Shown: positions 3,356 to 36,990 of the stretch, piece by piece
How positions within the stretch are numbered: the first letter of the stretch is position 1
How the letters are laid out: each line of letters starts with the position of its first letter
NCBI GenBank assembly: GCA_030682385.1
Contig: JAUXOG010000089.1
Coordinates: 1-60,601, forward strand
Length of the DNA: 60,601 nucleotides
From: Bacteroidota bacterium
GTDB lineage: Bacteria; Bacteroidota; Ignavibacteria; UBA10030; BY39
Reading direction: 5' to 3'
Notes under the pieces: model-generated
The model's input: only the letters and a program-made list of their open reading frames with translations
The model's database searches: none
What the model was told of the DNA's origin: nothing
Position numbers and translations under genes: made by a program

Positions 3356-3422
3356 ATCCCGCCAAGAGCGGGATTCTCAAAATTGCAACCACTCGTAAAA
3401 AACACTCGTGGGCAATTTTCGA
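3356..3422 (+). repeat. Paired-hairpin element copy B, in the tRNA-Arg anticodon loop
   Basis: Hairpin 1 is a perfect ATCCCGC-CAAGA-GCGGGAT (3356-3374). The core TTCTCAAAAT follows. Hairpin 2 is short: CAAAATTGC pairs with GCAATTTT, with an inner repeat ACTCGT...ACTCGT. The flanks CAGCTT and AGAAGGCTG are the two sides of the tRNA-Arg anticodon loop on the other strand. Confidence 0.75.
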
Positions 3423-3449
3423 AGAAGGCTGATGCTCTATCCGATTGAG

Positions 3450-3532
3450 TCCCGCCTGCGGCGGGATTCTCAAAATGACTTATAACTTAACTTCTCCCGC
3501 TTTGCGGGATCGTTAAGTTATGTCATTTTGGA
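3450..3532 (+). repeat. Paired-hairpin element copy C, in the tRNA-Arg D-arm
   Basis: Hairpin 1 is TCCCGCC-TGC-GGCGGGA (3450-3466), followed by the core TTCTCAAAAT. Hairpin 2 has arms TGACTTATAACTTAAC and GTTAAGTTATGTCA and holds a nested palindrome TCCCGC-TTT-GCGGGA (3495-3509) at its tip. It ends ATTTTGGA. It splits the tRNA-Arg copy between GTAGC and CTCAATCGG. Confidence 0.8.
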
Positions 3533-3544
3533 GCTACGGGCCCA

Positions 3545-7260: not shown

Positions 7261-7272
7261 GCGCCTGTAGCT

Positions 7273-7356
7273 TCCAAAATTTCATAAGTTAGCAAATGTA
7301 ATGCAGCTAACTTATAAGAAATTTTGAGAATCCGCCGAAGTGAAACAAAGGCGGAT
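7273..7356 (-). repeat. Paired-hairpin element copy D, in the tRNA-Arg(TCG) D-arm
   Basis: An 84-bp element, the near-identical reverse complement of copy A (43-126): TCCAAAATTTC, hairpin 2, GAGAATCCGCC, loop, GGCGGAT. It begins right after GTAGCT of a tRNA-Arg 5' fragment. This is the homologous position, within a base or two, to that used by copy C in the other tRNA-Arg. Confidence 0.8.
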
Positions 7357-7396
7357 CAATAAAATAAAACACACGCGCCTGTAGCTCAATTGGATA

Positions 7397-7444
7397 CCCG
7401 CCCGACCGAACGTTAGAGAGCTCATTATCGGTCGTTCGGGCGGG
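7397..7444. repeat. Palindrome inside a tRNA-Arg fragment
   Basis: CCCGCCCGA (7397-7405) pairs with TCGGGCGGG (7436-7444), and ACCGA with TCGGT inside it. It separates GGATA from GAGCATC of the tRNA-Arg sequence, on the 3' side of the D-loop. Confidence 0.7.
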
Positions 7445-7461
7445 GAGCATCAGTTTGATAT

Positions 7462-7734
7462 ATGAAACACTATGTTTATATATTGAAGAGTTGTAGAGAT
7501 AGTAAAAGATATATCGGTATGACAACTGATCTTGAAAGAAGATTAGGAGAACACAATGCAAAAAAGACTAAATCTACAAAAGGACGCGGTCCTTTTGTAT
7601 TAGAATATTTTGAAGAGTTCGATACACGACTTGCAGCAAGAGAAAGAGAAAAGTATTTTAAAACCGCTGCCGGTAGAAGGTTAATAACTGAAAAGTTAAT
7701 AATTAACTATCAGCAATTAGCCATTGACAATTAG
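7462..7734 (+). CDS. Small GIY-YIG nuclease-like protein (UPF0213 type)
   Basis: 90 residues. It has YVYIL (the GIY strand) at 4-8, YIGMT at 17-21, the conserved arginines of DLERRLGEHN at 24-32, and AAREREKYFKTAAGRR at 58-73, which carries the catalytic-type glutamate. It is one domain with no separate DNA-binding module. Such proteins are common in this phylum, often near RNA genes; their function is largely unknown. The gene lies inside a 477-bp segment bounded by 22-bp direct repeats carrying the tRNA-Arg 5' end. Its last residues (QQLAIDN) and stop codon are supplied by the right-hand AATTG tract, so the 3' end of the gene was formed by, or fused to, the repeat. Confidence 0.8.
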   Translation: MKHYVYILKSCRDSKRYIGMTTDLERRLGEHNAKKTKSTKGRGPFVLEYFEEFDTRLAAREREKYFKTAAGRRLITEKLIINYQQLAIDN

Positions 7735-7737
7735 AAT

Positions 7738-7811
7738 GCGCCTGTAGCTCAATTGGATAGAGCATCTGCCTTCGGAGCAGAGGGTTAGGGGTTCAAGTCC
7801 CTTCAGGCGTA
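7738..7811 (+). tRNA. tRNA-Arg (anticodon TCG)
   Basis: Complete cloverleaf: acceptor GCGCCTG/CAGGCGT with G1-U72, discriminator A. Anticodon stem TCTGC/GCAGA encloses loop CTTCGGA, giving anticodon TCG. CCA is not encoded. This is the intact copy downstream of the broken ones. An AATTG tract (7699-7734) ends three bases before it. Confidence 0.95.
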
Positions 7812-7872
7812 CAAATTTATACGCCGCTACTCTCTTTGCTTTTTTCTCAAATCATATTAATCTTGAAATCAA

Positions 7873-13979: not shown

Positions 13980-14051
13980 TAAAAATTTCGGATTTGATTC
14001 ATAAATCATAAATTCCCGCCTGACCTGCGGGCAGGTGCAATCCGAAATTTA
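13980..14051. repeat. Large palindrome between tRNA-His and tRNA-Glu
   Basis: AAATTTCGGATT pairs with AATCCGAAATTT, enclosing ATTCATAAATCATAAAT and an apical CCCGC-CTGACCT-GCGGG. This nested layout, a long AT-rich arm with a GC-rich palindrome at one side, resembles the paired-hairpin elements in opposite order. It fills almost the whole gap between the two tRNA genes. Confidence 0.65.
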
Positions 14052-14054
14052 GCC

Positions 14055-14127
14055 GCCCCTATCGTCTAGAGGCCTAGGACACGAGCTTTTCAAGCTTGGA
14101 ACACGGGTTCGAATCCCGTTGGGGGCA
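14055..14127 (+). tRNA. tRNA-Glu (anticodon TTC)
   Basis: Acceptor GCCCCTA/TGGGGGC with discriminator A. Anticodon stem CGAGC/GCTTG encloses loop TTTTCAA, giving anticodon TTC. T-arm is ACGGGTTCGAATCCCGT. Parts of this gene and its 3' flank recur at 14237-14382, 14383-14555 and 34760-34980. Confidence 0.95.
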
Positions 14128-14146
14128 CTGCAAAAAATATCAAATT

Positions 14147-14172
14147 ACAAATCCGCCGGAGGCGGACAAATT
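14147..14172. repeat. Short palindromic insert in the tRNA-Glu 3' flank
   Basis: The 26-bp insert contains ATCCGCC-GGA-GGCGGA and ends with CAAATT, repeating the CAAATT that precedes it (14141-14146). The third copy of this flank (34931-34945) has a single CAAATT and no palindrome, giving an empty-site reference. The same insert is present at 14401-14426 with one loop change. Confidence 0.8.
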
Positions 14173-14184
14173 TCAAATCAATAA

Positions 14185-14220
14185 CAAAAGCCACGATAGT
14201 TTGTCGCGGCTTTTGTCCTT
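14185..14220 (+). terminator. Terminator of tRNA-Glu
   Basis: CAAAAGCC-A-CGA pairs with TCG-C-GGCTTTTG around TAGTTTG, followed by TCCTTTT. Copies lie at 14439-14474 and 34949-34980, all downstream of a tRNA-Glu 3' end or fragment. Confidence 0.7.
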
Positions 14221-14236
14221 TTAAGTGATGAGGTGT

Positions 14237-14382
14237 GCTTTTCAAATCCCGCTTCTCCGCCTTCGACGGATACAGCGGGATCCGCAATTCGACTGATAAC
14301 ATATCTGCACTACGTTTGATAAATTATGTCGAATTGGGACTTGGAACATCCCGACAAAGTCGGGAAATCCCGTTGGGGGCAC
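14237..14382 (+). pseudogene. Broken tRNA-Glu copy 2, anticodon loop split by element E
   Basis: GCTTTTCAA (14237-14245) is the tRNA-Glu anticodon arm up to base 38. Element E (14246-14339) is inserted there, and the gene resumes with CTTGGAACA. In the T-arm the bases CGGGTTCG are replaced by a palindrome TCCCGAC-AAA-GTCGGGA (14349-14365), after which AATCCCGTTGGGGGCAC ends the tRNA. Most of the 5' half has been lost. Confidence 0.8.
14246..14339 (+). repeat. Paired-hairpin element copy E, in the tRNA-Glu anticodon loop
   Basis: Hairpin 1: ATCCCGC...GCGGGAT (14246-14282), with a smaller TCCG...CGGA inside the loop. The core is CCGCAATT. Hairpin 2 has CAATTCGAC pairing with GTCGAATTG, and the end is GGGA. 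It is a variant subfamily of copies A-D: the positions are the same but the arms differ. Confidence 0.75.
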
Positions 14383-14560
14383 TCCGAAAAATATCAAATT
14401 ACAAATCCGCCGGCGGCGGACAAATTTCAAATCAATAACAAAAGCCACGATAGTTTGTCGGGGCTTTTGTCCTTTTAAGTGATGAGGTGTGCTATTCAAA
14501 TACCGCTTCTCCGCCTTCGACAGATACAACGGGATCCGCAATTCGACTGATAACACTTCT
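14383..14560 (+). repeat. Tandem copy of the tRNA-Glu flank with partial element F
   Basis: This repeats 14128-14300 at a period of 254 bp: the flank with palindrome (14401-14426), terminator copy (14439-14474), GCTATTCAA of the tRNA anticodon arm (14491-14499), and the first half of an element like E (14500-14555). It stops before hairpin 2 closes. Together with the surrounding RNA genes this fills the 13776-14625 gap; no protein gene is evident. Confidence 0.75.
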
Positions 14561-14566
14561 GCTGAA

Positions 14567-34759: not shown

Positions 34760-34918
34760 GTTTTCAAATCCGCTTCTCCGCCTTCTGTGGATACAGCGGG
34801 ATCCGCAATTCGACTGAGCACTTACCTGCTCAGCATCGAATTAGTGATTTCAAGTTAGAGCTTGGTATATCCCATCGCACCCGCCGAAGTTTTAACGTAA
34901 GCGGAACGTTGGGGGCAC
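34760..34918 (+). pseudogene. Dispersed broken tRNA-Glu copy
   Basis: GTTTTCAA (34760-34767) matches the anticodon arm and is broken by element G. The gene resumes as GAGCTTGG (34858-34865), is interrupted again in the T-arm by a CCCGCCG...GTAAGCGG hairpin (34871-34905), and ends with ACGTTGGGGGCAC (34906-34918), the tRNA-Glu 3' end. The following flank and terminator match those of tRNA-Glu 20.8 kb upstream. Confidence 0.75.
34768..34844 (+). repeat. Paired-hairpin element copy G
   Basis: ATCCGC...GCGGGATCC encloses TCCGCCTTCTGTGGA. After the core CCGCAATTCG, the second hairpin is CTGAGCA-CTTACC-TGCTCAG, closed by ATTCGA/TCGAAT. It aligns with element E but hairpin 2 has a different sequence that still pairs. 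The remainder of the 34557-35019 gap is the upstream region of the activator gene, with no other gene. Confidence 0.7.
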
Positions 34919-34948
34919 TGCAAAAAATATCAAATTTCAAATCAATAA

Positions 34949-34980
34949 CAAAAGCCGCGATAGTTTGTCGGGGCTTTTTT
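34949..34980 (+). terminator. Copy of the tRNA-Glu terminator
   Basis: CAAAAGCC-G-CGA pairs with TCG-GGGCTTTT, followed by a T-run. It belongs to the duplicated tRNA-Glu 3' flank and would now end any transcript entering from the broken tRNA, just before the TPR protein gene. Confidence 0.65.
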
Positions 34981-35019
34981 ATTGGAATAATTATACATCT
35001 TTCGTATATTTGCAATCAA

Positions 35020-36990
35020 ATGGAGAAATCTTCAAAATTCATAATGCTCTTCGGAGTTGTATTTTTAATACTCCATATATGGGCAGCTCTTTCACCTTCA
35101 CATCTGAATTGGGGTTTTCATTTTTTCGCATTTTACAGTCCGGCATTTTCCATAATTTCATTACTTATTGCATTACTATTTTTTATCCCTATTGTTCAAG
35201 AAAAATTTATTCACTACATAAATCATCTATCACAAAAAATTAAGAGAGATTTCCCTAAAGCCTTTTTTCTGATTTTGTCATTATTGGCACTGTTGTTACC
35301 AATCCTATTATTTCCTGTCAAAGTGCATCTTTTAGGCGACGGTGCACTTTTACTAAGGGAAATATCCGGCGTACAATTAGGCGACCAACTGCCACCAACT
35401 TTTAACCGGCAATTATTAACAGGTCTATTATTACAAGCTATGAAAACCGTTTTCCAATCAGGCAGCTTGGAAAATTCAGAATTAATTTTCAGAATTGTAG
35501 GAGGGCTCTCCGGTTTAGTCTTCGTATTAATAATATTTGCTCTTCTGAAGTTAGTTCAAAAACCGGTTTCTGAAAAGTTTTTGCTTGGTGTATTAATTTT
35601 TATTTCAGCAGGCAGCCAACTTTTTTTTGGATATGTTGAAAATTATGCAGTTCTGTTTGTTACAACAGCCGCTTACTTAACCACTTGTTGGTTTACGTTA
35701 GAGAAAAAATCAAATATTTTGCTTCCCATACTGTTGTTTATTGTATTGGTAGGATTGCATATCGGAAGTATCGTACTCCTGCCTGGTTTACTCCTCGTTA
35801 TGTATTATGGATGGCGGCATCAGAGAATCGAAACCTTGATCATCGTTATAATTTCCCTCTTGCTTTCTGTAATTTTCAGTTTAATTTATTACAATAGGTT
35901 GGAAGATATAATTATCCGCACAATCAGCGAAAGCCGGTGGAATTTCCTTCAATTAATCCATTCAGATAATTATTTTGCTTACTCTATTTTTTCCTGGGCA
36001 CATCTGATTGATTGGTTAAATGCAAATCTTTTAATTGCACCTTTCGGTATCGCCGTAACAATTGCCATCCTTTTTTTCCTTCGGAAAAATATTGAATGGA
36101 ACAACAGAATACTTATCTTCTTACTTACTACAACTTTCTGCGGACTTTTATTTACCTTCATAACTTTTTTTGCACTTGGTATGGCTCGCGATTGGGATTT
36201 TATAGCAAGCTTCTTTCTACCCTTAGGATTCTTAAATATATATGTGTTAGCAAAATCTAATTTTTCAATTAAAAATACGCATGTAATTGCCTTTATCGTT
36301 GTGTTGAATTTTCTTCATTGGATTTCATGGATAGGTTTGAATGCCGATGAAAAGCGAGCCTTGGAGAGAGTTAAAATATTAAATGACCCTTACCTTTTAG
36401 GTCATGTTCCTCAATTAAATTTTTATGAAAATCTTGGCAGTTACTACTGGGCACAAAAAAATTATATTGAAGCTCGAAATTATTTTGAGCAATATATAGA
36501 AATAGATTCTTCGAATCCGAGGATACTCGGAAATCTTTCAGCAATATATACAAAGTTGAATCAGAGGGATAAAAATTATTGGGCTTTAAAACGCGCTGCC
36601 GATGCTAACAGCCCAAACCCGGCAGTTTACATAAACTTAGGTATCGAGTATTCCAAACAAGGCGATGCTGCAACGGCAATCGCTTTATACCAAAAAGCAC
36701 TTGCGATGGATTCTACGCGTGCTAAAGCTTATGCGAATCTTGGCAGCGTGTATATGCAAAGAAATGATATCAAGCTCGCAGCCGAAAATTACCACAAAGC
36801 AATATTATATGGATTGGTAGATTCAATTTTGTATCGTGAAGCCGGCACAGCATTTTATTTAATTGGGGAATACGAAAAGTCCTTGGTGATGTACAATAAT
36901 TATCTCAACATGGCTCCACACGATGAGAAAATAAAAAATATAAGGGATAAATTATCAGAATTAATTCGAGAATCGAAAGCTCAAAAATAA
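35020..36990 (+). CDS. Multi-pass membrane protein with C-terminal TPR repeats
   Basis: 656 residues from the ATG at 35020; the open frame reaches back to 34909 only through the duplicated tRNA flank. About ten to eleven hydrophobic helices span residues 8-430. LLGDGALLLREI after the third helix resembles the acidic loop of GT-C glycosyltransferases (such as DUF2723 or PMT relatives). Residues ~450-640 are TPR units (NLGSYYWAQKNYIEARNYFEQYIEID, NLGIEYSKQGDAATAIALYQKAL). The layout resembles membrane glycosyltransferases or O-antigen ligase-like proteins with TPR tails. It converges with the polysaccharide locus, 7 bp from its last gene, which supports a role in glycan or lipid-linked sugar handling. 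Confidence 0.7.
   Translation: MEKSSKFIMLFGVVFLILHIWAALSPSHLNWGFHFFAFYSPAFSIISLLIALLFFIPIVQEKFIHYINHLSQKIKRDFPKAFFLILSLLALLLPILLFPVKVHLLGDGALLLREISGVQLGDQLPPTFNRQLLTGLLLQAMKTVFQSGSLENSELIFRIVGGLSGLVFVLIIFALLKLVQKPVSEKFLLGVLIFISAGSQLFFGYVENYAVLFVTTAAYLTTCWFTLEKKSNILLPILLFIVLVGLHIGSIVLLPGLLLVMYYGWRHQRIETLIIVIISLLLSVIFSLIYYNRLEDIIIRTISESRWNFLQLIHSDNYFAYSIFSWAHLIDWLNANLLIAPFGIAVTIAILFFLRKNIEWNNRILIFLLTTTFCGLLFTFITFFALGMARDWDFIASFFLPLGFLNIYVLAKSNFSIKNTHVIAFIVVLNFLHWISWIGLNADEKRALERVKILNDPYLLGHVPQLNFYENLGSYYWAQKNYIEARNYFEQYIEIDSSNPRILGNLSAIYTKLNQRDKNYWALKRAADANSPNPAVYINLGIEYSKQGDAATAIALYQKALAMDSTRAKAYANLGSVYMQRNDIKLAAENYHKAILYGLVDSILYREAGTAFYLIGEYEKSLVMYNNYLNMAPHDEKIKNIRDKLSELIRESKAQK

Follow-up and report, generated by a model that had tools for sequence, protein, structure and literature searches.

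Small GC hairpins that appear and disappear as exact units, in most cases with no target duplication: a filled and an empty site in a duplicated tRNA-Glu tail

How does a very short GC palindrome come and go in a bacterial chromosome? The question is raised by the tail of a tRNA-Glu gene, two copies of which are 'filled', having a palindrome between CAAATT words, while a third is 'empty'. The first-pass annotation saw in this pair a small mobile insertion that had duplicated six bases of its target. The window, by which we mean the whole stretch of 60,601 nucleotides analysed, is part of a draft genome from the Ignavibacteria (G000; 3,383,374 bases in 140 contigs), which was compared with a relative of the same genus (G001), a member of the same family (G003) and others in a set of 60 genomes. 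The features at the three tails are as follows.

14055 to 14128, + strand: intact tRNA-Glu (ttc), from ARAGORN
14112 to 14365, + strand: first repeat unit, 254 bp, from repeat comparison and reading of the sequence
14141 to 14146, + strand: left CAAATT word of copy 1, from the sequence
14147 to 14151, + strand: ACAAA, the five bases separating the CAAATT word from the palindrome in copy 1, from the sequence
14152 to 14166, + strand: GC hairpin TCCGCC-GGA-GGCGGA of copy 1, from sequence and fold
14167 to 14172, + strand: right CAAATT word of copy 1, from the sequence
14366 to 14562, + strand: second copy of the unit, 95% identical to the first, from repeat comparison
14406 to 14420, + strand: GC hairpin TCCGCC-GGC-GGCGGA of copy 2, from sequence and fold
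34907 to 34978, + strand: third tail copy, without the hairpin ('empty'); the sequence past its end is syntenic with G001

The 254-bp unit comprises the 3' end of the tRNA, the hairpin-bearing tail, a terminator-like hairpin and a decayed tRNA copy with inserts. Copy 2 has the same order as copy 1, namely CAAATT (from 14395), ACAAA, the GC hairpin and CAAATT (14421-14426). The hairpin is 15 bp long in both, with fold z values of -3.5 and -2.1. Copy 3 reads CAAATTTCAAATC at 34931 and has no GC hairpin; removal of one CAAATT and the intervening bases from the filled form gives copy 3 to the base. Filled and empty forms thus differ by 26 bp, with a gap that slides over the six bases of CAAATT. 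Once one CAAATT is subtracted 20 bp are left, of which the palindrome makes up just 15. The filled/empty difference described in the first-pass annotation is therefore real and was correctly placed, but its letters need amendment: the palindrome was said to start at ATCCGCC, dropping 'ACAA', where in fact ACAAA precedes TCCGCC, and a GGA loop was assigned to both copies where copy 2 has GGC.

Copies 1 and 2 form a tandem repeat with a spacing of 254 bp, 95% alike across 197 bp, and so do not represent two independent filled sites. The tail tract contains CAAAT four times within 57 bp, and the empty copy 3 already has two CAAAT-type words of this A+T word-repeat tract. About 12.5% of positions in the window, roughly one in eight, have a direct repeat of at least 6 bp around them, spaced 20-32 apart, so that the CAAATT repeat alone is only mildly unusual.

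Relatives do not orient the change. The alignment of G000 to G001 ends at 14129 and restarts at 34972, leaving the following segment between.

14130 to 34971, no strand: 20.8 kb absent from the syntenic place in G001

In G001 the tRNA-Glu is followed directly by a different terminator-like hairpin and then by a homolog of the gene that the window has at 34909-36990, and its tail differs, having neither CAAATT nor hairpin. A 20-kb query from within the segment found just partial or distant matches in G001; the segment is either extra in G000 or lost in G001. Copy 3 occupies the right-hand flank that is syntenic with G001, which also has no hairpin there. Among the 60 genomes searched, the tail of the G000 tRNA-Glu was unmatched in the other 59, so that no outgroup has an alignable tail; over the three tail copies, gain and loss are equally parsimonious. 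The 3' end of the tRNA-Glu in G003 has a different palindrome within a similar CAAAT tract, evidence only of the recurrence of such sites.

The 20.8-kb segment itself is bounded by tRNA-Glu tail copies and contains six large ORFs, which include a subtilase, several proteins with secretion-tail domains and a hybrid sensor with a sigma-54 activator domain. An integrative island with att sites was considered for it and rejected: it resembles an insertion at a tRNA-Glu 3' end, but there is no integrase among the six large ORFs.

Beyond this locus, the feature is a member of a genome-wide family of GC hairpins of about 15 bp with TCC...GGA ends, sitting in a duplicated tRNA-Glu tail. The core CCGCCnnnGGCGG, searched as the pattern CCGCCNNNGGCGG, is found 68 times in G000 compared with once for the reversed pattern, and 37 times in G001 compared with none, so the family is far beyond chance. 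A strong excess over the reversed pattern is likewise seen in some others of the 60 genomes (G002 35/0, G003 36/0, G032 63/1, G041 55/3), and no excess in yet others (for example 29/33 in G015 and 45/48 in G022). Arms are mostly 6-7 bp long, the CCGCC core included. After identical cores had been merged and sites too close to a locus end dropped, 54 of the 68 palindromes in G000 and 32 of the 37 in G001 were analysed. CAAAT immediately precedes the core at three of the 54 G000 sites, two of which are copies 1 and 2. At the Rfam gathering score, the matches in the window are four tRNAs only.

Three palindromes occupy matching positions in G000 and G001, and two of these immediately precede start codons, those of genes judged by eye to be dnaK and lepA. 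Some palindromes are therefore stable. At L084:1541 and L126, in both genomes, a CCGCC palindrome lies just 5' of the ribosome site of a dnaK-like gene, and further palindromes are found close before start codons at L087, L089 and L090.

Gain and loss of the family could be followed first at orthologous sites. In 139,673 nt of alignment between G000 and G001 there are 201 indels of at least 10 bp, each of which was scored for k, the length of the direct repeat at its joint; many of the 201 come from poorly aligning stretches and k of the non-palindromic set is noisy. The palindrome-bearing indels of up to 80 nt number seven, with k of 0, 0, 0, 0, 1, 4 and 5. Values of at least 4 are thus seen in two of these seven, compared with two of the 163 indels without a palindrome in the same size range. 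One case with k = 0 lies in the window, just upstream of the tRNA-Glu.

14015 to 14035, + strand: palindrome of 21 bp in the spacer between tRNA-His and tRNA-Glu, absent at the same place in G001, k = 0

This hairpin is present in G000 and absent from G001, G002 and G004, and G003 has different ones in the spacer. At one G003 locus (L043), a GC palindrome is seemingly nested in the loop of another, in the tRNA-His/tRNA-Glu spacer and again behind tRNA-Glu. Other cases with k = 0 include 20 bp at L164:8764 and 26 bp found in G001 only. In the k = 5 case G001 reads TCCAT-CCGCCATAGGCGGAC-TCCAT and G000 a single TCCAT; in the k = 4 case the repeat is AAAT. Together with CAAATT (k = 6), both of these repeats lie within A+T word-repeat tracts. 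At L154:7839, L157:11327 and L084:1258 there are palindrome-like inserts of 15, 21 and 27 bp, multiples of three that are possibly within reading frames.

A second and better view of filled and empty sites comes from the partial tRNA copies that adjoin many tRNA genes here. Each copy was compared with the adjacent intact tRNA and insertions with exact flanks were listed. The 153 raw candidate events were mostly overlapping readings, of which 30 were kept after resolving; a control with reversed neighbourhoods yielded 0 candidates, compared with 300 overlapping real ones. The 30 insertions fall in 26 of 113 tRNA contexts, a proportion that is not a genome rate, since the loci behind the contexts had been chosen for a tRNA, hairpin or palindrome match or taken as blind stretches. 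Twenty-four of the inserts fold as hairpins (z <= -2), a few of them loose fits such as a 34-nt tRNA-Glu case, and among these k is 0 in 13, 1 in six and 2-4 in five. Single palindromes of at most 50 nt (22-49 nt) account for ten of the 24, among them inserts of 22 nt in tRNA-Pro copies (L110, anticodon arm), 29 nt in a D arm (L041) and 37 nt in a T loop (L043). The inserts cluster in the D, anticodon and T arms (tRNA positions 11-27, 32-36 and 57-60). A 25-nt module, TCCCGCCGATGGCGGGATAAACTCC, is found in G001 in a tandem pair of tRNA-Pro copies, not as a clean addition but in place of a few bases; it also occurs in G001 at an intergenic site, whose counterpart in G000 is empty, and, minus its first bases, in G000 at L023, with flanks resembling those of the intergenic G001 site. 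The window has several hairpins inside or at the ends of tRNA sequences.

60 to 128, - strand: hairpin 1 of the double-hairpin element (see below), abutting tRNA-Leu (cag) at its 3' end, from an RNA model match
3365 to 3534, - strand: two hairpin elements within a tRNA-Arg (tct) fragment, including an RNA model match
7261 to 7356, + strand: 5' fragment of tRNA-Arg (tcg) with an inserted double hairpin
7375 to 7458, + strand: another tRNA-Arg (tcg) 5' fragment, whose D arm contains a 48-nt palindrome; the end coordinate is approximate
14272 to 14340, - strand: hairpin 1 of a double-hairpin element within the copied tRNA-Glu fragment, from an RNA model match
14349 to 14365, + strand: palindrome TCCCGACAAAGTCGGGA, located by eye, through comparison with the intact tRNA, in the T arm of the copied tRNA-Glu fragment

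Both lines of evidence show that each hairpin comes or goes as an exact unit, in most cases with no duplication of the target. The earlier proposal that the GC palindrome alone can be the moving unit is borne out by the ortholog pairs and by the hairpins inside tRNA copies, which also supply the further filled and empty pairs it had called for. Its other half is not supported: a 6-bp duplication is not the regular companion of the palindrome and a duplication does not always go with it, k being 0-1 in five of seven ortholog indels and in 19 of the 24 tRNA-copy hairpins. A direct duplication of fixed length, by which insertion sequences and MITEs are recognised, was not found. What was found is an optional GC hairpin at orthologous sites, as in mitochondrial GC clusters.

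For the pair itself, loss in copy 3 by slippage is the simplest event, and we would put its likelihood at a little better than even. Replication would misalign the two CAAATT words, aided by the hairpin lying between them, and would then delete one CAAATT word, ACAAA and the hairpin to leave copy 3. The hairpins would arrive by insertion of single-strand DNA, or by copy-choice insertion, at breaks, a route that leaves no duplication. Taken as a whole, the explanation by a family member, exact-unit gain and loss mostly without duplication, and slippage loss in copy 3 is in our judgement probable. Loss in copy 3 is favoured over a duplication-free insertion with a change in word number, and that in turn over an insertion with duplication.

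The intermediate reading is rather unlikely. It holds that the palindrome was inserted without duplication, that the number of CAAAT words was changed separately by slippage and that the fit to CAAATT is coincidence. Such a history agrees with the general rule that k is 0-1 and with the periodicity of the tract, which has four CAAAT words, but it calls for two events where one is enough.

The original proposal, in which a mobile palindrome entered CAAATT and duplicated 6 bp of its target, copy 3 being the site that it never reached, now appears quite unlikely. The joint does fit one extra CAAATT, and the TCCAT case (k = 5) provides a second fitting pair. Repeats are also in excess beside the palindromes: directly adjacent repeats of at least 6 bp occur at three of the 54 G000 sites where re-paired flanks predict 0.12, and at laxer offsets near-boundary repeats are in excess in both genomes. 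Two of the three adjacent-repeat sites in G000 are, however, copies 1 and 2, and G001 has none among 32. Some enrichment of repeats beside palindromes is thus seen, but their length varies (6, 5 and 4, all three in word-repeat tracts) and they are not usual, given the k values of ortholog indels and tRNA-copy hairpins. Moreover, an insertion with duplication must carry the non-palindromic ACAAA, which is not a feature of the family, as the three CAAAT-preceded cores among 54 indicate, and this favours loss in copy 3. Duplication may still accompany a minority of insertions.

Could the hairpins instead be REP-type elements moved by this genome's own RAYT (Y1 HUH) transposases, which would act on TCCGCCnnnGGCGGA single strands? 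REPs are short palindromes with many copies, mostly intergenic, that fall into GTAG and CGTC families, the CGTC type being listed for Chlorobi and Bacteroidetes (PMC3733652). The family described here resembles them in small size and abundance. The transposase search, which covered the Y1_Tnp family (PF01797), gave ten matches in the genome, all above the cut-off, so that at the level of that family a RAYT-type gene is present, and several RAYT-like genes have palindromes of their own nearby. HUH insertion is not known to leave a duplication. Against this, eight of the ten Y1_Tnp loci were examined and the flanks read contain no CCGCCnnnGGCGG palindromes, and the REP tetranucleotides are not the rule: within 12 nt of the palindromes, GTAG occurs at 1/54 sites and CGTC at 0/54 in G000, with 4/32 and 0/32 in G001, where two of the GTAG cases are tRNA fragments. 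Neither tags nor RAYT flanks fit membership, and the examined loci lack a RAYT gene flanked by this palindrome; the hairpins within tRNA copies are a further difference from REPs. We rejected this assignment and regard RAYT-driven movement as improbable. Among the eight Y1 transposase loci (L251-L258), several have their own palindrome families, such as TAACTCCGCCCTGAAGGGCGGAGTTA, and others none.

It is very improbable that the hairpins are functional conserved structures, such as mRNA leaders or terminators, made and lost by mutation and not mobile; the three hairpins shared in place by G000 and G001, two just before start codons, would suit this, but the same module is found at unrelated places and hairpins lie within broken tRNA fragments. 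Scarcely credible is an assembly artefact, in which the 254-bp tandem copies would stem from collapsed or chimeric repeats in a 140-contig draft: several tRNA-hairpin loci do lie at contig ends (C43, C139, C69), but several bases distinguish copy 1 from copy 2, each of which has neighbours of its own, and the same architecture is seen in many other genomes.

The association with tRNA extends to a larger, double-hairpin element, whose first hairpin is bulged and A+T-rich and whose second is a GC hairpin; it occurs within tRNA copies and at the 3' ends of tRNAs. An RNA model built from 15 G000 copies has matches in 40 of the 60 genomes searched, G000 included, with up to 25 per genome. Other genomes returned 29 loci, and in 19 of these an intact tRNA is no more than 300 bp away, compared with 0.5% of positions in 40 G000 stretches; in G000 itself this is true of 12 of 21 matches, and several others are at contig ends. 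In hairpin 1, 97.5% of cells are paired and 53 cells have double changes over 15 rows, figures that are biased by the choice of 12 of these rows with a scan demanding pairing. A resemblance of the double hairpin to integron attC was tried by eye against attC core sites and dropped.

Small GIY-YIG genes are found in the same surroundings, as here.

7462 to 7734, + strand: small GIY-YIG ORF of 90 aa, separating a tRNA-Arg fragment from the intact tRNA-Arg (Pfam E 5.8e-18)

This ORF has 14 matches in G000, itself included, seven of them within 150 bp of an intact tRNA. The order at 7261-7812 is two hairpin-bearing 5' fragments of tRNA-Arg (tcg), the GIY-YIG ORF and the intact tRNA. At the contig end, 60076-60449, the window also has six copies of a 36-bp repeat with 66-68 bp spacing, CRISPR-like in appearance.

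We tentatively propose, as a possibility that falls somewhat short of even likelihood, a tRNA-anchored hairpin system. Partial tRNA copies, made next to an intact tRNA gene, would receive single GC palindromes and bulged double hairpins in their D, anticodon and T arms, the joints being exact and free of duplication. The small GIY-YIG nucleases would be the likely source of breaks, and stray palindromes such as the one in the tRNA-Glu tail would spread from there across the genome. In phage T6 the free-standing GIY-YIG nuclease SegB drives segmental tandem amplification of tRNA segments (PMC13096335), which makes nuclease-driven copying of tRNA plausible. The likeness lies in a GIY-YIG nuclease adjoining tRNA genes and in tandem duplication of tRNA segments; the difference is that SegB belongs to a phage, and hairpin modules are not mentioned in the available part of that report. 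None of the titles and abstract openings covered by our literature search dealt with tRNA copies in Ignavibacteria that contain hairpin elements, or with small GIY-YIG genes at bacterial chromosomal tRNAs.

In behaviour, by analogy, the nearest counterparts are the mitochondrial hairpin elements. GC clusters, double-hairpin elements and repetitive hairpin-forming elements likewise come as single and double hairpins, also within RNA genes, and for those of Allomyces flanking duplications are reported to be lacking (PMC2800124). Unlike them, the present hairpins are on a bacterial chromosome, in a genome of 3.38 Mb, with tandem partial tRNA copies and small GIY-YIG genes beside tRNAs. The (A)n/(T)n palindromes of Fusarium mitochondria are similar in being optional between close species, which was taken as a sign of mobility, but they consist of A+T mononucleotide runs and not of GC hairpins (PMC7218506).

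These results replace the rule of a palindrome with a 6-bp duplication by a testable one, movement of an exact unit that normally occurs without duplication. They also bring to light an unusually good reference for such events, since the intact tRNA beside each broken copy records the empty site to the base. Were the tRNA-anchored system to prove true, it would be a bacterial counterpart of the mitochondrial hairpin elements, whose mode of spread is unsettled.
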